Source of the DNA: Methylomarinum sp. Ch1-1 | GTDB taxonomy: Bacteria > Pseudomonadota > Gammaproteobacteria > Methylococcales > Methylomonadaceae | Length of the DNA: 64,000 nucleotides | Assembly: GCF_030717995.2 (NCBI RefSeq) | Contig: NZ_CP157743.1 | Coordinates: 3,312,501 to 3,376,500 of the forward strand | Direction of reading: 5' to 3' | Shown here: positions 39,692 to 49,195 of the stretch, in pieces | Layout: each line of letters begins with the position of its first letter | Position numbering within the stretch: position 1 is the stretch's first letter | The notes under the pieces: generated by a model | The model's database searches: none | Told to the model about the DNA's origin: nothing | The model's input: only the letters and a program-made list of their open reading frames with translations | Program-made: the position numbers and the translations under genes

Positions 39692-40102
39692 TCTATTCCA
39701 GTAATTCTCCTTCGATATGTCGCTTGAATAACACCCGATATCTGGCTTGCCGCTCAATTGCCTCTCTACCTAACACCATATACAGTACATGAGGTGTAGT
39801 ACATAGTTCGGATAATTTACCAAACGAATTGCTGGCGTAGCTCGACCAAATATATCCCGACGGCTATCCCACCATGCCTGCCCTAACCGGATTCAACTCG
39901 ATATAGCGATAAAGTTCCAATAGGTAGATTTCGTCCTGAACCAGGCATGAATATCGACCTGATATTTCTCCGAAGCTTCCTTTAGCCAATTAGCAGACAC
40001 TGCAAAATCGTGTTTGTCGGCAAAACAAACCTGCCGATTATTACCGCGCTGAATGATGTGTTGTAGTGTTCCAATCGGACATACTCTCGATAGCCTTGCC
40101 AT
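39692..40102 (-). pseudogene. Y1 (HUH) transposase with internal deletion
   Basis: The minus strand begins MARLSRVCPIGTLQHIIQRG, the N-terminal beta-hairpin of Y1_Tnp transposases, and runs to VDIHAW. The segment that should carry the HxH motif is missing. Sequence resumes with YRYIELNPVRAGMVG, the catalytic-tyrosine and NPVRAG block, then an in-frame stop, and homology-like sequence (WSSYASNSFGKLSEL, ending HIEGELLE) to about 39692. The family is related to the intact RAYT at 14744 but belongs to the longer subgroup. Certainly non-functional. Confidence 0.75.
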
Positions 40103-40279
40103 TTTTTTTCCTGCAGTCATCAAATTGATGTGGCAAACTTCAAATTTCACCCTAATTATACGATGCGACTCATGGCTTTTTGAAATGCTGTTTTTTCAGC
40201 AGAGATTTTTTTGGCTTATTGACACAGGACAGGCTGGCAAACGGGTGCCCCCAATTATTCCTGCCAATTATTTTGAGAA

Positions 40280-40777
40280 TTAATCGTCGTCCTGATCCGG
40301 CAATACTATGCTCGCCTCGGATTGTTGATGAAGATCGGAATCAGTGAAGGTTCTTATATCGCAGCAAAACTCAATCTGGAGATTATTCGGATCAAGCAAG
40401 AAGATTGATTTTGCATGTCCAAGATCGATCACCTGAGAAACATCTATCCCCTGGTCTTCCAGCTTATTGCGCATTTTTTCGAGGCCGTCGAGGGTATGAA
40501 TCTTCAGGGCGAAATGATACATGCCGCCCGGCAACCCAAGCGCGCCGTTGATTCCGGTATCATATTCCGCCGGAATGCCCGAGATTTCTTTCGGCTCCAT
40601 GAAAACAATGAACTGTTGATCGCCCACTTCAAAATAGGCTTGGCGCAACATACCTCCTTCTTTGATTCGGGTCTTATGCTCGGCGACAAGGGGGAAACCG
40701 AGCACATTCTTATAGAATTGAATCGTGGCATCCATATCGAGCGTTGATAAACCGACGTGTGAAAATCCGCTGCCCAT
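40280..40777 (-). CDS. VOC-superfamily (glyoxalase/dioxygenase-like) protein
   Basis: A 165-residue protein with two beta-alpha-beta-beta-beta repeats. The first begins FSHVGLSTLDMDATIQFYKNVLGF and the second MYHFALKIHTLDGLEKMRNKL. Candidate metal ligands are His in SHVGL, His in MYHFAL and Glu in LQIEFCC, the usual vicinal-oxygen-chelate set. The C-terminus has a hydrophilic tail ending DDD. The family covers isomerases, dioxygenases and resistance proteins that sequester small molecules. It lies downstream of the GMC oxidoreductase on the same strand, 139 bp away, at the end of the putative RiPP locus, so tailoring or self-protection is possible but unproven. Confidence 0.78.
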   Translation of the reverse strand: MGSGFSHVGLSTLDMDATIQFYKNVLGFPLVAEHKTRIKEGGMLRQAYFEVGDQQFIVFMEPKEISGIPAEYDTGINGALGLPGGMYHFALKIHTLDGLEKMRNKLEDQGIDVSQVIDLGHAKSIFLLDPNNLQIEFCCDIRTFTDSDLHQQSEASIVLPDQDDD

Positions 40778-40915: not shown

Positions 40916-42343
40916 TCATCCACCGCGAACCTGCTCAAGCTTCGTGCGTATATGATCAGCTAAGCGGAGAGTCAACGCAATAAGGGTAAATGTTGGATTA
41001 GCCCAGCTAGCACTCGGAAACACGCTGCCACCAGCAATATAAATGTTGCTGTAATCGTGCATCCGACTATTAGAGTCAACGACGCCATCGGCTTTATTCC
41101 TGGACATGCGTGTGGTGCCGAGATGATGATTCGAATGGAGTAATAAGCTATCATCGCGATCGATCAGATGGATAGTATCCCGCACCTTGCCGACATTAAT
41201 ACGCTCAAATTCGCGGCTTAAATAATTCGCCGTCTTTTCGTATGACTTCCAATCAAGTTCCGTGAGCCGCCAATCCAGGCGGACCCGACGCATTCCCAGG
41301 GAATCCGTTCGATCAGACAGGGTAAGCCGGCTGTTCGGATTGGGCGCTTGCTCCAAAAACATACCAACCTTCGGCGTTTCGTCGTCACTCATACTTGGCG
41401 TCCGATATATATGAGCACGAGCATTCAAAATTTGCGCTTCTTTCTGTATTCGTTCCGACAGCCCTACGCACAACAAAAACTGTTTTTCTTCGTCGAAATA
41501 CCCTCGTTCGAGCCAATTCTTGAATAAACCGACTCTTTCCACGGTCAACGCGCTAATAGACAGATGCGGATGTTCCATGAAGTTTCGTCCCACCCAGTCG
41601 TTGGCGTTACCCAGTCCGTGGCAAACTTGGGTATCCGAATTAAGCAGAATGCGCGCTGTCTCGATGCCACCGCACGCCAAAACAAAGATGTCGGCTGAAA
41701 TATGGCCTTCTCGCCCACTCAAGGTGCGTATTTTGAGCGTTGAGGCCATGCTGTGTTCAGCGTCTAGCCGAATATCAACGACATTCGCATGGGTCAACGT
41801 TATCACATTCTTCGATGTATCGAAGTGATCCCGATGGTGTTCGCTAATTCTCACGGTTGGCGTCCCAAACCGCCAAACAGTGGGGATGACAATCTCATTA
41901 TCGAAAGGAAGTTGGATTTCAGCGCGTCTCGCAATATCTCGAGGGTCAAAATTAAGATCGTCGATATTTAGTAATTTGGCGGTTTTTTCATAATAAGGTT
42001 TAATGGCTTCCACCCCGAATGGCCAACCACTGCCGGGAACCCATTCACGATGAGTGAAGTCATGAGAATCGAAAACAGCGCAATATCCTGCCCATAGTGC
42101 GGAAGACCCGCCGAATTGACGTGTGCGTGTTTCAGTCAGCGGGTAGTCGATGCCCACACATTCACCGATTTGCAGCGCCTGCAGGTCTGCATCGACTTCA
42201 AATCCGCCGCTTTCGATAACAAGCACCGGACCCAAATCGGCCAATTCATTCGCCAAAGTCAGTCCCGCAGGCCCCGCCCCAACGATAGCTATCTGAACCG
42301 ACCGATTCAAATTCACTTTTTCATCTCGAGAATCAAGGATCAT
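40916..42343 (-). CDS. GMC-family FAD-dependent oxidoreductase
   Basis: A 475-residue flavoprotein. It has an N-terminal ADP-binding fold IAIVGAGPAGLTLANEL (GxGxxG at 22-27), the family block QFGGSSALWAGYC, a central CGGIETARILL, and the GMC C-terminal catalytic region HHLGTTRM and SWANPTFTLIALTLRLADH, providing the usual His and Asn. Members oxidise alcohols (glucose, choline, sugars, hydroxyl groups on natural products). It is divergent from the 2OG oxygenase gene (105-bp gap), suggesting shared regulation. Its codon use is more AT-rich than the housekeeping genes, as in the rest of this locus. Substrate unknown; acting on the modified peptide is a hypothesis. Confidence 0.85.
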   Translation of the reverse strand: MILDSRDEKVNLNRSVQIAIVGAGPAGLTLANELADLGPVLVIESGGFEVDADLQALQIGECVGIDYPLTETRTRQFGGSSALWAGYCAVFDSHDFTHREWVPGSGWPFGVEAIKPYYEKTAKLLNIDDLNFDPRDIARRAEIQLPFDNEIVIPTVWRFGTPTVRISEHHRDHFDTSKNVITLTHANVVDIRLDAEHSMASTLKIRTLSGREGHISADIFVLACGGIETARILLNSDTQVCHGLGNANDWVGRNFMEHPHLSISALTVERVGLFKNWLERGYFDEEKQFLLCVGLSERIQKEAQILNARAHIYRTPSMSDDETPKVGMFLEQAPNPNSRLTLSDRTDSLGMRRVRLDWRLTELDWKSYEKTANYLSREFERINVGKVRDTIHLIDRDDSLLLHSNHHLGTTRMSRNKADGVVDSNSRMHDYSNIYIAGGSVFPSASWANPTFTLIALTLRLADHIRTKLEQVRGG

Positions 42344-42447: not shown

Positions 42448-43047
42448 ATGATTATTCCGCGAGGCCAACTCACATCATTAAAGTCGGACATTGTTAATAT
42501 CGGATTTGCGTCTATAGAAAACTCAATAAATGATGCCTTATTTGTAGCGCTCCGAGAGGAAGCTTTAGCTCAAAAATCACGAGCTCGCCGCGCAGTCGAC
42601 AATGGTTCGGTTTCCTATAGGGGGCAACTGGCTGACCTTGGAGAAGTTGCGAGAGCTTTTTTGACTAGTCATCCATTTGCTGAATTTTTACGGTCAATCT
42701 TTGCTCAACGTTTCATTCTCTCCGAGGAATCAAGTTGTTACACTTACTATGGGACTGGCGATTTCTTAAGCCCGCATCGAGACGTTGCGGATGATTGCCT
42801 AGCGACAGTCTTAGTGTATTTAGAGGCCACCTCCCCAGATCCGAATAAGCTCGACACGGGGTTAGTGTTGAAAATATACGAAGACGGTGTTGGAAAACCG
42901 GCTAATCTCCGACATATGATCAAGACACGCAACGGTTTAGTCGTTGTGGGCCGCGGTTCAGCAGTATGGCATGGTCGGCCACCGCTGCTTGCTGGCGAAC
43001 AAGTGGTTGTTTTGACCGCATGTTTTTCAGCATGCGCCTTGATCTAA
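42448..43047 (+). CDS. 2OG-Fe(II) oxygenase (prolyl-hydroxylase-like)
   Basis: A 199-residue non-haem iron dioxygenase-like protein. The core YTYYGTGDFLSPHRDVADDC contains the HxD pair (His110, Asp112), and the distal histidine is likely His175 in AVWHGRPPL. The double-stranded beta-helix context (ATVLVYLEAT, GLVVVGRGSAVWHG) fits the family. A clear arginine for 2-oxoglutarate is not obvious after the distal His, so the cosubstrate is less certain. Such enzymes hydroxylate peptides, amino acids or small molecules. It is divergent from the GMC gene and convergent with the arginase-like gene; a MITE-C lies just behind its stop. Confidence 0.75.
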   Translation: MIIPRGQLTSLKSDIVNIGFASIENSINDALFVALREEALAQKSRARRAVDNGSVSYRGQLADLGEVARAFLTSHPFAEFLRSIFAQRFILSEESSCYTYYGTGDFLSPHRDVADDCLATVLVYLEATSPDPNKLDTGLVLKIYEDGVGKPANLRHMIKTRNGLVVVGRGSAVWHGRPPLLAGEQVVVLTACFSACALI

Positions 43048-43268: not shown

Positions 43269-44264
43269 TTATTTGATTCTGTCCTCTATTTCTGTTAAAA
43301 GCCAATCCCAATGATATGCCGAGCAAAATCCGGGAGAAGTCGCTATTATCCAATGGTCCACACGAACCTGCATCGCGTGTAAAGCGTCAAAAAATCGTTC
43401 CAATTTTTGGATCACTTGATATTTCAAGTCGTGATTGGGAAAATGAAAAGCTGTTCCGACATTACCGTTGAAATCATTGATAAAGTAGTCGAGGTCAATG
43501 TGCACGATGACCTGACCTTCAGGGGTGCTTGCCAGCACTTTATCGACGTTGTTCCCACCTCGATACGTTCCCGCGCTATTCTGCCAATCTGAATTTGCCA
43601 GACGAATTGCGGCAAATTGTTTATTGGGAATGAGCTCATAGCAGTAGTTCTCTTGAATCACGTTGTATAAGTCATAGGTACTGCTCGCACTATTATTTAG
43701 ATGCCTTACATGAACTTTATGATCGGAGTAGTACAGCGGCGTGATAAAGCTTCCTATGCCGATACAGCCCGAATATATAGCAGACTCCCAATCATTACGA
43801 ACTGAAGGATCAAATGATTTGCCCGTTGATGGATCCGTCAATCCTTCTCCGGTACGTTCAAGCAACGTCGACATCATATCGGTATGATCATCCAGATGGA
43901 TGAGAACTAAGTCATCCGCACGATCATTTCTACCTAAATGGTCGGCCAAGAAGTAGCCTGACCAAGAATCCTCAAAACACAAATCAAATGATGCCCTTCT
44001 TGATCGATAGTCGAGAATATCCCCTAAGAGCATGCCTTTTTTATACTTGCCCAAGGCCTTAGAAAGATACGGATCAATCGTGTGATAATACATATCTGGA
44101 CCCAGCATGCGGAAACCTAACTCGTTTTCGAGCAATTCGAACTCGACATTGCGAACGATGCTTCGAATTTTTCTCACGGTCTCTCCAGCACCATGACTTA
44201 ATAAGAAGGATCTGTCGATAGGAATCGTATTAATGGCATCAGATGGACGATTGAGAAATCTCAT
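43269..44264 (-). CDS. UPF0489 / peptide-arginase-like metallohydrolase
   Basis: A protein of about 331 residues with the ureohydrolase (arginase) metal motifs: HLDDHTDMM (about 123-131) and HIDLDYF (about 260), corresponding to the DxHxD and DxD manganese ligands. This pattern fits UPF0489, the family of the peptide arginase OspR, which converts arginine in RiPP precursors to ornithine with release of urea. It lies directly downstream of the radical SAM gene, and the precursor ends in two arginines, so the context fits. ATG 44264 is used; an in-frame TTG at 44291 is an alternative. A tiny overlapping frame in front (ending at the ATGA) might couple translation. Activity is inferred. Confidence 0.75.
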   Translation of the reverse strand: MRFLNRPSDAINTIPIDRSFLLSHGAGETVRKIRSIVRNVEFELLENELGFRMLGPDMYYHTIDPYLSKALGKYKKGMLLGDILDYRSRRASFDLCFEDSWSGYFLADHLGRNDRADDLVLIHLDDHTDMMSTLLERTGEGLTDPSTGKSFDPSVRNDWESAIYSGCIGIGSFITPLYYSDHKVHVRHLNNSASSTYDLYNVIQENYCYELIPNKQFAAIRLANSDWQNSAGTYRGGNNVDKVLASTPEGQVIVHIDLDYFINDFNGNVGTAFHFPNHDLKYQVIQKLERFFDALHAMQVRVDHWIIATSPGFCSAYHWDWLLTEIEDRIK

Positions 44265-44464
44265 GAGAGAGGCACCGATGTTGCAAAACAATGAAGCGTT
44301 TTCATACTTGTGATATTTAGACGGGGGCCGAAACCATCATACCTCTGGCTTAGATTCCTCAGGCGCCCTACGAGTAAATCAACAGAATTTGATATGTCTA
44401 CATTTTCATTCTTCTCCAAGTCGTAATTAGATGAAGATTCTCAACCAAAACAGGATTAAAAGGC

Positions 44465-45673
44465 TTAGTTGCTTTCGTTTAAGTGACTCAATAGTGTATT
44501 CGCAAAGGTCTTGACATGAATAAGGCATTCCGGGGTTTGGGCCACGTTAAATCTCTCAAATCTTCTGAATTTAATCAGATTGTAACCGCCGGAACAGAGA
44601 TTAAAATACTCGCATCCAGCTTCGCAAGCTCGGTGGCTTGCTTCGAAATCACTTGCTATTTTTTGAAGCTTGGTCGAATTAGCAATTTCATCAAGACTTG
44701 CATTCAATACATTGCCAACCACCAACCCTTTGCCGTCGCCATACAAATCCTTAAGGTCTTTGCACTCGTCTACCGTCAATCCGGCATAGAAAGTCGTGAG
44801 ATCGCCATTTGCTTCGATACTCAATGTTTTAAACGGCTTACTCATGCTGCGAGCATCATATTTCTGACGTCCATTCGCTTCCCCGAATAGCATATTGTAG
44901 AAAATCGAAAAATTTCGGATTTGTGGAAATTTCTTGTTTTCGTGCTTTGAGATTTCATTCAATAGCGAACGCAAGAACAAGTCATACTTGTTTGCATACG
45001 ACTCAATTTTTTTGCTGTCTTCACTATCTATAAAAATTTCGTCGTGAAGATTGAAATGAAATTCACGAATATACTTCGAGAATCGTGAGAAATACTCTAA
45101 AAATTCGACCGGATGCTCCAAGCTTTCTGGCGAAACCACCGCGATTACATCGAAGTCAATACCGTTTTCGCATAATAGCTGCATTCCCTGCTGAGTTAAG
45201 GTGTGTGAGGGTTTCCCCGACCAGTTTTTTCGGTACAAATCATGAAGAGACGCCGGGCCGTCACAACTAACCCCAATTGTCAAAAGCTCACCATACTCAT
45301 TGATGAGATCACACCACTCTTGATTGATCAGTGTGCCATTAGTCTGAATATCGAAGCGTATATTAAAATCTGATAAACAGTAATAATCCCTTATTTTCAA
45401 GATGCGCTCAATCGCTTCTCGATAATAAGAGGGTTTTAATATAAGTGGTTCACCGGAATGCCAACTCACGCGCAATGTCTTGTCAACATAACGACTAGAT
45501 AACAACTTTTCGAATATAGTTTCAATGGTGGATATAGCCATCGCCGATTTATTTCGGCGGCTTTCTTCTGATAGGTAACAATACGAACAATTTAAATTAC
45601 AAAAGGATGTGCTCTGAAGAACCACCATTTCTACAGGGCCAACCGGGATATTGCCTTCACTGAGCCTATTCAT
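44465..45673 (-). CDS. Radical SAM/SPASM peptide maturase
   Basis: A 402-residue radical SAM enzyme. The 4Fe-4S site CNLNCSYC (Cys25, Cys29, Cys32) is at the N-terminus, as usual for the peptide-crosslinking class, followed by the SAM-contact stretch VSWHSGEPLIL and DIQTNGTLI. The C-terminus has the SPASM-like cysteine cluster CEAGCEYFNLCSGG plus a later Cys (TPECL), which holds auxiliary clusters. This layout is typical of cyclophane- or thioether-forming RiPP maturases (for example XyeB- and GrrM-like groups). The 55-residue precursor gene lies 228 bp upstream on the same strand. An AT-rich gene. The exact crosslink cannot be read from sequence. Confidence 0.88.
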   Translation of the reverse strand: MNRLSEGNIPVGPVEMVVLQSTSFCNLNCSYCYLSEESRRNKSAMAISTIETIFEKLLSSRYVDKTLRVSWHSGEPLILKPSYYREAIERILKIRDYYCLSDFNIRFDIQTNGTLINQEWCDLINEYGELLTIGVSCDGPASLHDLYRKNWSGKPSHTLTQQGMQLLCENGIDFDVIAVVSPESLEHPVEFLEYFSRFSKYIREFHFNLHDEIFIDSEDSKKIESYANKYDLFLRSLLNEISKHENKKFPQIRNFSIFYNMLFGEANGRQKYDARSMSKPFKTLSIEANGDLTTFYAGLTVDECKDLKDLYGDGKGLVVGNVLNASLDEIANSTKLQKIASDFEASHRACEAGCEYFNLCSGGYNLIKFRRFERFNVAQTPECLIHVKTFANTLLSHLNESN

Positions 45674-45901: not shown

Positions 45902-46069
45902 CTATCGACGCATCATCGGTCCCCACGAAGCCGCACAAGTAGATTTTACTTCCTCGGCCCCTGAGACGGCTAACGGTCCATAGTGCTTGAGTTTCCCTTT
46001 TATATGTGCTGACTTAGCTTTAGAAACGGCAGTTGAGATATCGAAGCATTGAACGTTTTGAATAGTCAT
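45902..46069 (-). CDS. Putative RiPP precursor peptide (55 aa)
   Basis: A short gene with a near-ideal AAGGAG site 5 bp before ATG. The peptide begins MTIQNVQCFDISTAVSKAKS, has a charged helical leader (AHIKGKLKHYGPLAVSG) and a C-terminal segment AEEVKSTCAASWGPMMRR. Leader-core architecture, small size and the position directly upstream of a radical SAM/SPASM maturase on the same strand mark it as the substrate. The core probably starts after the SGAEE region. Trp49 is the likely aromatic partner for a radical-SAM crosslink, and Arg54-Arg55 are the likely arginase targets. Cys45 could also be modified. There is no signal peptide. I inferred this gene from both frame and ribosome site. Family: resembles, but is not proven to be, the XYE-type precursors. 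Confidence 0.78.
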   Translation of the reverse strand: MTIQNVQCFDISTAVSKAKSAHIKGKLKHYGPLAVSGAEEVKSTCAASWGPMMRR

Positions 46070-46102
46070 ATTGGCTCCTTAATATTTGTACTGTAAGCAT
46101 GA

Positions 46103-46611: not shown

Positions 46612-47625
46612 ATGAATCTTAACGTAGTGGGTTTAGATATTGCAAAACTAGTGTTTCATATGTTCATGATGCAAGACGGCAAAGCAAAGAAAAAGAAATT
46701 GAAACGGTCGGAACTGTTGGCCTTTGTGGCTCAGATGCCGGTGAGCGTGATCGCGATGGAAGCCTGCGGCGGCGCTCATCATTGGGCCCGGGCATTTCAG
46801 GCCCTGGGCCACGAAGTAGTGCTGTTGAATACTCGCTTCGTGAAGGCATTCGTGGTTGGCAATAAAAACGATTACAACGACGCCGAGGCGATTTACACGG
46901 CGGCCTGCCAGCCGAACAAACGCAGCGTGGCGATCAAAGGCATTGAGCAGCAAGACTTAGCCATGCTGCAAGGTGTCCGGCGAGGTAAGGTGGACGAACG
47001 CACGGCCTTGGTCAATCAAATGCGCGGTTATCTGGCTGAACGAGGCATCGTGCTGCCGCGTAGCGTGAATCAGTTCAGAAAACAACTGCCCAGTATTCTG
47101 GAGGACGGGGAAAATGACCTCAGCACGCTGAGCCGGAAGCTGTTTGCCGAGCAGTATCAAGCGCTGAAAGCCTTGGACGAAGCGATCCGGGCTCTGGACC
47201 GGGAAATTACGGCAGTATGCCAAAACAATGCCTTAGCCCGACGATTGCTTGACATACCGGGTATCGGTCCTTTGACCGCCATTTTGGCCACGGCTGACGT
47301 CGGCGATGGCAAGGGTTATGATTCGAGCCGAGATTACGCGGCCAGCTTGGGCGTGGTGCCAAGGCAGCACAGCAGCGGCGATAAGCAGGTATTACTGGGC
47401 ATCAGTAAACGCGGCAACCGCCAATTGCGCACATCCTTGATTCACGGGGCAAGAGCGGTGCTGAAATACTGCGGTGACAAGAGCGACCCCTTGAGCCTGT
47501 GGCTCAAAGGCTTGATTGAACGGCGAGGCTTCAACAAAGCGGCCGTGGCTTTGGCCAACAAGAACGCCCGGATCATTTGGGCGCTGGCAACGCGTGGCGG
47601 CGATTACGTGCCACAAATGGCCTAA
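46612..47625 (+). CDS. IS110/IS1111-group DEDD transposase
   Basis: A 337-residue serine-assisted DEDD recombinase. The N-terminal RuvC-like domain starts VVGLDIAK, with the first Asp, then MEACGGAHHWAR (Glu) and KNDYNDAEAIYTA (Asp-Asp). The C-terminal transposase_20 domain carries LLDIPGIGPLTAILATADVGDGKGYDSSRDYAASLGVVPRQHSSG-type sequence, including the Tnp20 helix-hairpin and the conserved serine region (GISKRGNRQLRTSLIHGARA). Ribosome site AGAGGAG precedes the ATG. The gene is intact, so the element may be active. IS110 enzymes use an element-encoded bridge RNA to choose the target. Confidence 0.95.
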   Translation: MNLNVVGLDIAKLVFHMFMMQDGKAKKKKLKRSELLAFVAQMPVSVIAMEACGGAHHWARAFQALGHEVVLLNTRFVKAFVVGNKNDYNDAEAIYTAACQPNKRSVAIKGIEQQDLAMLQGVRRGKVDERTALVNQMRGYLAERGIVLPRSVNQFRKQLPSILEDGENDLSTLSRKLFAEQYQALKALDEAIRALDREITAVCQNNALARRLLDIPGIGPLTAILATADVGDGKGYDSSRDYAASLGVVPRQHSSGDKQVLLGISKRGNRQLRTSLIHGARAVLKYCGDKSDPLSLWLKGLIERRGFNKAAVALANKNARIIWALATRGGDYVPQMA

Positions 47626-48091: not shown

Positions 48092-49195
48092 ATGTCGGAT
48101 ATTTATATTTTTGGGTCTGGATATAAAGCGCAATTAATATTAACTTGGTTAACGGATCATGGCGACCTTTCCAGAGATCACATTTCCGGCATTATTGATT
48201 ATCCCGAATTCTTAAATGATGTAGACACTGAGATCCTCGGCGTTCCGGTCACGTCTTATAACGACATTAAAGGGCGACTTTGCAAAAATGATATCTTTAT
48301 AATTGTCAGCCGATTATTTAACGAGGCGATTGCTGAGCTTTTTTCGCAAAATTTTTATAACGTTTTCGACGGCGAAGCTGTCATTCAGCGTGAAAACAAG
48401 ATTCAAAAGTTTTTGAACATCGCGTCAGATCTTTATATCGGCCCCTCCCCCCCTAAAACGTGCGAATCTGAAAATCATAATTATCTCAGGTATATTGCAA
48501 AACCATTAGAGGCAAACAAAGTGCCAATGCACAAACTCTTTATTGTAAATAGCATCCCCAAATCTGGAACAGTCTGGATGATGGCGATGCTTGAAAGAGT
48601 GTTGGGAGTAAGAGCAAATCAGCAAATCACGTTATCACACCTTCGAGATATAGAAGTTGACTGGCCAAAACCAAACAATCACGGCGCGGTGGTGCTGGTC
48701 CGCGATATGCGAGACGTCGTGGTTTCGTGGTTTCACCACCTAAGCCGCGTTGATCTGCAGAACGGATTTTCTTCACCCCGCTACCCCAATGTAGAGGATT
48801 TTTACTTCGAGCACTTTATCGCCCAACTATTTGGCAGCTCCCGCTACTATTTTGGCGAACTTGAAAAATGGTTGGATTTTGTTGGCGCCAACAGTTTCCC
48901 CGTCATCAAATATGAAGACTTAGTCTCCGATACCTCGGCATCCCTTCGGAAAGTTATGAATTTTTGGAAAATCAGCGTTCCAGACCAGGCGCTTTTCGAT
49001 ATTGCGCAAGAACATTCATTCGGTAATATGCAGAAAAATTTCTTTGATCAAGAAGGATTCGTTGCCGACATGTTGAAAACCGGCCACCTGCGCAGTGGCC
49101 GTGTTGGTGCATGGGAGGAGGAAATGCCTACACGAGTGGCAGAAGATATCAATCGGAGATTTTTTGGTTACCAGCGCCGCTTGCAATACCTATAA
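48092..49195 (+). CDS. Sulfotransferase-domain protein with N-terminal nucleotide-binding-like domain
   Basis: A 367-residue protein. The C-terminal two thirds is a PAPS-dependent sulfotransferase: the 5'-phosphosulfate loop IPKSGTVWMM (Lys157) and the 3'-phosphate site VRDMRDVVVSWFHHL, followed by YEDLV and the PAPS-binding-like LRSGRVGAWEEEM near the C-terminus. The N-terminal 110 residues (MSDIYIFGSGYKAQLILTWL) resemble the PglD-type acyltransferase N-terminal Rossmann-like domain. The combination suggests sulfation of a glycan or other surface or small-molecule acceptor. It stands alone after the IS1111 element. A link with the RiPP locus on the other side of the IS is possible but unsupported. 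Confidence 0.82.
   Translation: MSDIYIFGSGYKAQLILTWLTDHGDLSRDHISGIIDYPEFLNDVDTEILGVPVTSYNDIKGRLCKNDIFIIVSRLFNEAIAELFSQNFYNVFDGEAVIQRENKIQKFLNIASDLYIGPSPPKTCESENHNYLRYIAKPLEANKVPMHKLFIVNSIPKSGTVWMMAMLERVLGVRANQQITLSHLRDIEVDWPKPNNHGAVVLVRDMRDVVVSWFHHLSRVDLQNGFSSPRYPNVEDFYFEHFIAQLFGSSRYYFGELEKWLDFVGANSFPVIKYEDLVSDTSASLRKVMNFWKISVPDQALFDIAQEHSFGNMQKNFFDQEGFVADMLKTGHLRSGRVGAWEEEMPTRVAEDINRRFFGYQRRLQYL

Follow-up and report, generated by a model that had tools for sequence, protein, structure and literature searches.

What does the short open reading frame (ORF) at positions 45,902 to 46,069 of a 64,000-nucleotide stretch of the Methylomarinum sp. Ch1-1 genome (contig NZ_CP157743.1; "the window" denotes this whole stretch) encode, and which of its residues are modified by the enzymes encoded around it? 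A preliminary description had read the ORF as the precursor of a ribosomally synthesized and posttranslationally modified peptide (RiPP) with the C terminus SWGPMMRR and had matched its terminal Arg residues to a neighboring arginase. We found homologues of this precursor at 11 other loci, distributed over the Alpha-, Beta-, and Gammaproteobacteria, giving with the window 12 loci in unrelated bacteria. We consider it rather probable that the locus directs the synthesis of a single defined peptide that is modified by Trp cross-linking, ornithine formation, hydroxylation, sulfation, and alcohol oxidation. This would be a previously undescribed cyclophane-type RiPP pathway, with an observed gene set and conserved core and a predicted chemistry.

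The precursor and its conserved tail

The precursor gene has the following features.
45902..46069, minus strand: precursor peptide of 55 amino acids (ATG at 46069, TAG ending at 45902), with homologues at 11 loci
45905..45928, minus strand: conserved tail SWGPMMRR, residues 48 to 55, the presumed core (from pairwise identity and codons)
46075..46079, minus strand: ribosome-binding site AGGAG of the precursor, read directly 5' of the ATG

The full translation of this ORF is MTIQNVQCFDISTAVSKAKSAHIKGKLKHYGPLAVSGAEEVKSTCAASWGPMMRR; it contains the leader stretch HYGPLAVSGAEE and ends in STCAASWGPMMRR, in agreement with the ORF, the C terminus, and the residue numbering (Cys45, Trp49, Arg54, and Arg55) given in the preliminary description. 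The ORF is not a chance occurrence, since the same tail adjoins orthologues of the same enzymes at 11 other loci and since its codons vary synonymously between loci. In all 12 loci, the signature S-W-G-[P/S]-[A/M]-M-R-[R/K] forms the extreme C terminus of the precursor; for Competibacter (L010), in which the precursor and radical S-adenosylmethionine (SAM) genes are frame disrupted in the assembly, the tail alone was used. The mean pairwise identity among the 12 precursors was 93% for the last eight residues, compared to 29% for the leaders. Codon positions 1 and 2 of the tail were 86% identical and position 3 was 52% identical, the changes being mostly silent, and Ser48 was encoded by both AGY and TCN codons. 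As judged from residues and codons, the tail is shown to be under strong purifying selection.

Five residues, namely, Ser48, Trp49, Gly50, Met53, and Arg54, were invariant in the 12 precursors, and Trp49 and the next-to-last Arg (Arg54) are the best candidate modification sites. The preliminary description had proposed that invariance of Trp49, Cys45, Arg54, and Arg55 would mark the modified residues, which held for Trp49 and Arg54 and failed for the other two. (i) Cys45 was found only in the window and in loci L007 and L008 and is missing from the remaining nine precursors; the suggested cross-link to this residue is unlikely and was rejected. (ii) The Caballeronia tail (L011) reads SWGSAMRK, with Arg55 replaced by Lys and the arginase retained, and the idea that both terminal Arg residues are essential was rejected. 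An arginase kept after loss of the C-terminal Arg had been named as evidence against a substrate-enzyme match; Arg55 proved dispensable in this way, and Arg54 was kept in all 12 loci. Since Arg54 is invariant while Arg55 was once exchanged with the arginase kept, Arg54 is the likely arginase target, and the proposed match is upheld in that an arginase-like enzyme accompanies a conserved C-terminal Arg. (iii) Residue 51 is Pro in 10 loci and Ser in the other two.

The precursor matched none of the NCBIfam models. Literature searches on YhhA and WGPAMRR returned nothing, and neither the papers found nor any curated family names this precursor. A search of the strain's genome for a second copy returned only the one at 45902-46069. 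Another ORF (44261-44419; 52 codons with a TTG start), which reads RYDGFGPR and whose stop codon overlaps the arginase ATG (ATGA), was considered as a second precursor and rejected: it had no match in related loci, and the radical SAM and arginase genes of L007 overlap, leaving no room for it.

The gene set and its distribution

The genes around the precursor gene, including one inserted element, are listed below.
44465..45673, minus strand: radical SAM/SPASM peptide maturase of a clade beside GrrM/OscB (TIGR04261 score, alignment, and tree)
43269..44264, minus strand: peptide-arginase-like ureohydrolase, read from an ATG at 44264 (or possibly from a TTG at 44291)
42448..43047, plus strand: 2-oxoglutarate (2OG)/Fe(II) oxygenase with an HxD...H motif, between the arginase and GMC genes
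40916..42343, minus strand: GMC-family flavin adenine dinucleotide oxidoreductase (PF05199/PF00732), with orthologues in all but one of the 11 other loci
40280..40777, minus strand: VOC metalloprotein (glyoxalase/extradiol dioxygenase fold; PF00903) with His7, His88, and Glu136 invariant in the alignment
48092..49195, plus strand: 3'-phosphoadenosine-5'-phosphosulfate-type sulfotransferase (PF00685) with an extra N-terminal domain and orthologues in 9 other loci
46612..47625, plus strand: IS110-family transposase (NF033542), an insertion outside the pathway

The radical SAM/SPASM enzyme, the arginase-like protein, and the VOC metalloprotein were present in all 12 loci, the GMC oxidoreductase was present in 11, and the 2OG oxygenase and the sulfotransferase were each present in 10. 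The sulfotransferase, which was not included in the preliminary description, belongs to the same gene set. When 84,980 genomes were scanned by means of aligned arginase homologues from Yhh loci (see below), nine loci with arginases of 37 to 46% identity were retrieved. All nine encode the radical SAM enzyme (36 to 64%) and the VOC protein, eight encode the GMC enzyme, and the oxygenase and the sulfotransferase were both found in seven. Searching the family to which the Erythrobacter locus belongs for the radical SAM enzyme added two more complete loci, L069 and L070. The arginase was found neither in 300 other genomes of the window's order nor in 368 of its class. Seven groups were sampled (105, 221, 299, 298, 75, 39, and 151 genomes; about 1,190 in total), and in these the arginase accompanied each orthologue of this radical SAM clade; the sole other strong radical SAM hits were ordinary GrrM-like proteins.

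Apart from the IS110 element, the gene order in the window is that of the Hyphomonadaceae loci; in relatives with this order, the precursor and sulfotransferase genes are adjacent and divergent, and in the window the element separates them. No protease gene is located near the locus. A remnant resembling a transposase associated with repetitive extragenic palindromes (IS200-like) was recognized by eye at 39864-40150, and a gene for a HerA-like ATPase (PF01935; 49264-50925) adjoins the sulfotransferase gene. In the Caballeronia locus, a carbamoyltransferase gene adjoins the GMC gene, and an AAA/TPR (STAND-like) protein is encoded downstream of the cluster (L011:14019-16955). An SbmA/BacA-like ABC transporter is confined to alphaproteobacterial loci, where it recurs with a protein of about 800 residues that has a weak pentapeptide-repeat match (L012:832-2613, L012:2690-5194, and L069:6545-8947); a role of both in export or self-protection is possible.

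Predicted enzyme functions and alternative explanations

The best model for the window radical SAM enzyme was TIGR04261 (GrrM/OscB), with 293.4 bits, which is below the cutoff of 310 (the L007 protein scored 283), and its match to PF13186 was just at the cutoff (21.6 bits). The cysteines of the CxxxCxxC motif and of SPASM (C25, C29, C32, C350, C354, C360, and C383) were invariant in nine aligned sequences. In the tree, the 11 readable sequences formed a single clade with support of 98/100, to which none of the five GrrM and two YhhB proteins belonged, and the window enzyme grouped with those of Halomonas and Zobellella. OscB forms a bond from Trp C-7 to the C-beta of residue i+2, and MscB forms one from Phe to the C-beta of an i+2 Ser, a known triceptide partner (PMC11002830). 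Trp-Gly-Pro had initially been judged a poor fit to a three-residue aromatic cross-link; since two loci have Ser as the third residue, counting Trp as 1, and Ser can act as such a partner, this type of cross-link is more plausible than had been assumed. The tail would permit a three-residue cyclophane from Trp49 to Pro/Ser51, and the cross-link partner of Trp49 is probably this i+2 residue.

The arginase-like protein scored below the cutoffs of both PF12640 (18.9 bits; cutoff, 27) and NF052474 (21.8 bits; cutoff, 350). Its structural model (predicted local distance difference test [pLDDT] score of 91) had OspR (8BRP) as the best Foldseek match (probability of 1.00), and VIA-align superimposed it on OspR with a Z score of 17.6 over 219 residues at 3.7 Å, compared to 10.7 for the next ureohydrolase. 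In OspR, His12 and Asp43 coordinate MnA, His41 and Asp167 coordinate MnB, and Asp39 and Asp165 bridge the two (PMC10028609). Five of these six ligands (Asp43, His41, Asp167, Asp39, and Asp165) correspond to D129, H127, D259, D125, and D257, respectively, which are invariant in 48 of 48 homologues within the DXHXD and DIDLDYF motifs. The sixth, His12, appears to be replaced in the model: its place falls on D99 (45 of the 48 homologues have Asp here and the other 3 have Glu), a mapping derived from the start of the alignment (model residue 90 to chain residue 3) and from spacing, not from measured coordinates. The EEH(N/H)EAF motif with the MnA His was not encountered, and the region reads ED[S/C/N]WxG. 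A plasmid search with an OspR fragment for the canonical N terminus gave no match; a PF12640 probe matched none of eight genomes, including known carriers of the clade, nor the controls, and is uninformative on absence.

The model of the 2OG oxygenase (pLDDT of 91.4) was closest in fold to Lys/Orn-acting enzymes of the BesD/HalB type and to prolyl 4-hydroxylases; since its HxD motif is retained, hydroxylation is expected rather than halogenation. The oxygenase is encoded in all Pro51 loci and is absent from the whole genomes of both Ser51 loci, in which the sulfotransferase is also absent locally and a dual-specificity-phosphatase-like protein and a 411-residue protein are encoded instead. The oxygenase and the sulfotransferase thus accompany Pro51 in 10 of 10 loci and Ser51 in none of two (Fisher test, 0.015). 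This hints at Pro51 as the site of hydroxylation and sulfation; the association counts as one event, since it probably rests on a single evolutionary change, and is hence treated as a lead only.

In the pathway that we propose, the radical SAM enzyme would link the Trp49 ring to residue 51 (Pro, or Ser in two loci) by a C-C bond at the beta-carbon of that residue, closing a three-residue cyclophane. The arginase-like enzyme would convert Arg54, and perhaps also Arg55, to ornithine and urea, the 2OG oxygenase would hydroxylate Pro51 or the newly formed ornithine, and the sulfotransferase would sulfate a hydroxyl. The GMC enzyme might oxidize an alcohol, the VOC protein might reshape the product or protect the host, and a host protease would cleave off the leader. 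Several points weigh against this assignment: we found no precedent in the literature for Pro as the i+2 partner; the fold relatives of the oxygenase include both Lys/Orn-acting and prolyl hydroxylases, which leaves the target hydroxyl ambiguous; and Arg hydrolysis is not certain for a protein that misses the Pfam and NCBIfam cutoffs and the MnA His of OspR. As a tentative extension, the product would be a single fixed octapeptide, Trp cross-linked, ornithine containing, hydroxylated, and sulfated, made with an arginase in which Asp/Glu takes the place of a His ligand; given how little the core varies among three bacterial classes, it may be cofactor-like or have a signaling function rather than being a weapon.

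Such constancy of the core, unlike that of most antibiotic RiPPs, would also suit a small peptide-derived cofactor or metallophore made by the logic of mycofactocin, pyrroloquinoline quinone, or methanobactin, in which the C-terminal residues are excised and oxidized to one fixed molecule. A GMC oxidoreductase occurs in mycofactocin clusters too, although the matches to the MftG models are weak, and sulfotransferases occur in methanobactin clusters. We nevertheless hold a product of this kind to be unlikely, as YhhA triceptides have a near-invariant core as well, the loci are very thinly scattered and frequently adjoin mobile elements, no obligate partner enzyme was observed, and neither a TonB receptor nor a peptidase recurs in the clusters.

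Two further alternatives concern individual steps. The radical SAM enzyme could join Trp49 to Met53 or Arg54, or form a thioether-type link to Met, giving a ring larger than the three-residue cyclophane. Met53 and Arg54 are invariant whereas residue 51 varies between Pro and Ser, and YhhB, encoded beside a related arginase, bonds to the C-beta of Arg (PMC11002830). This larger ring appears improbable, however, given that the bonds formed by the closest characterized relatives (GrrM/OscB) are all of the i to i+2 type, and a link from Trp49 to Arg54 would be i+5. As for the arginase-like protein, Asp/Glu at the MnA His position in all 48 homologues and scores far under both cutoffs might indicate a catalytically altered ureohydrolase that makes no ornithine, for instance, a partner protein that binds the leader or an enzyme whose substrate is a different amidino group. 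We give this possibility little credence in view of the five metal ligands conserved in the 48 proteins and of the invariant Arg54, which a noncatalytic partner would not need.

Relation to known systems

The enzymes that would build the proposed Trp cross-linked, ornithine-containing peptide belong to known types; what is new is their combination, together with the invariable character of the SWGPAMRR core and the apparently altered metal site of the arginase. The locus defines a RiPP family that has not been curated, in which the core is fixed and the tailoring enzymes (cyclophane-type radical SAM, arginase-like, 2OG oxygenase, GMC, VOC, and sulfotransferase proteins) form an unusual assortment, and whose natural variants (Pro/Ser51, Arg/Lys55, and the presence or absence of oxygenase and sulfotransferase) allow the site assignments to be tested directly. 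As to mycofactocin, neither an MftA-like precursor nor an MftG-type GMC enzyme was encountered; the window GMC protein reached 42.8 bits, compared to the MftG cutoff of 400. Biphenomycin-type clusters (bip and pbs) similarly contain an arginase, an enzyme that hydroxylates the resulting ornithine, and a cross-linking radical SAM enzyme (PMC12257519, PMC12707348), but their MNIO (multinuclear nonheme iron-dependent oxidative) enzyme, B12-radical SAM enzyme, and FRF-type core are not among the conserved genes or in the tail found here, and the window locus has a SPASM enzyme and a sulfotransferase.

GrrM/OscB systems likewise combine a radical SAM/SPASM peptide maturase, an aromatic core residue, and an adjoining precursor gene. 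They differ in that their precursors have W/F/Y-x-N or Gly-rich repeats (for example, WYNWNNWPNWSNWRNF at a typical GrrM locus), whereas a single SWG[P/S][A/M]MR[R/K] tail is found here, and in that the window enzyme, under the TIGR04261 cutoff and in its own clade, is partnered with an arginase, an oxygenase, and GMC, VOC, and sulfotransferase proteins. An ordinary GrrM locus of the window's own bacterial family (L078:7781-9526; precursor tail, QWYNWNNWPNWSNWRNF) has a W-x-N repeat precursor without terminal Arg-Arg and no arginase on its 10-kb contig piece. The peptide arginases OspR, FlmR, OhkR, PbsE, and BipC (PF12640) share with the window protein the fold, the DXHXD and DIDLDYF motifs, and the RiPP gene neighborhood; the window protein differs by its scores below the cutoffs, the lack of EEH(N/H)EAF, and about 90 extra N-terminal residues.

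The closest parallel for the arginase is found in YhhA/YhhB triceptide loci, in which plasmid homologues of about 29% identity are annotated as hypothetical. Such unrecognized genes lie on Novosphingobium and Rhizobium plasmids (L002:8995-10002, L003:8863-9729, and L004:8842-9840), followed by GNAT and glycosyltransferase genes; L003 and L004 adjoin genes of a cyclic-oligonucleotide-based antiphage signaling system (CBASS), and L002 adjoins a Piwi-domain gene. Nearly all distant arginase homologues (L019 to L051) follow a YhhA gene whose product terminates in a variant of SYDRMHHRHNRS, and the near-invariant YhhA tails at arginase-bearing loci always contain Arg. Both systems have a cyclophane maturase, a member of the arginase-like clade (26 to 30% identity), and a conserved Arg in a near-invariant core tail. 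In the Yhh system, however, YhhB is fused to or followed by an HEXXH protein and bonds Tyr and His to the C-beta of Arg (PMC11002830), the accessory genes encode GNAT and glycosyltransferase proteins, and the core is SYDRMHHRHNRS. The position of the homologues behind YhhA and the bonding of YhhB to Arg indicate that a single clade of arginases is shared by two cyclophane systems in which a C-terminal Arg is fixed, and lend independent support to the match between arginase and Arg. Since current profiles miss this divergent clade, arginases of RiPP pathways are probably undercounted.
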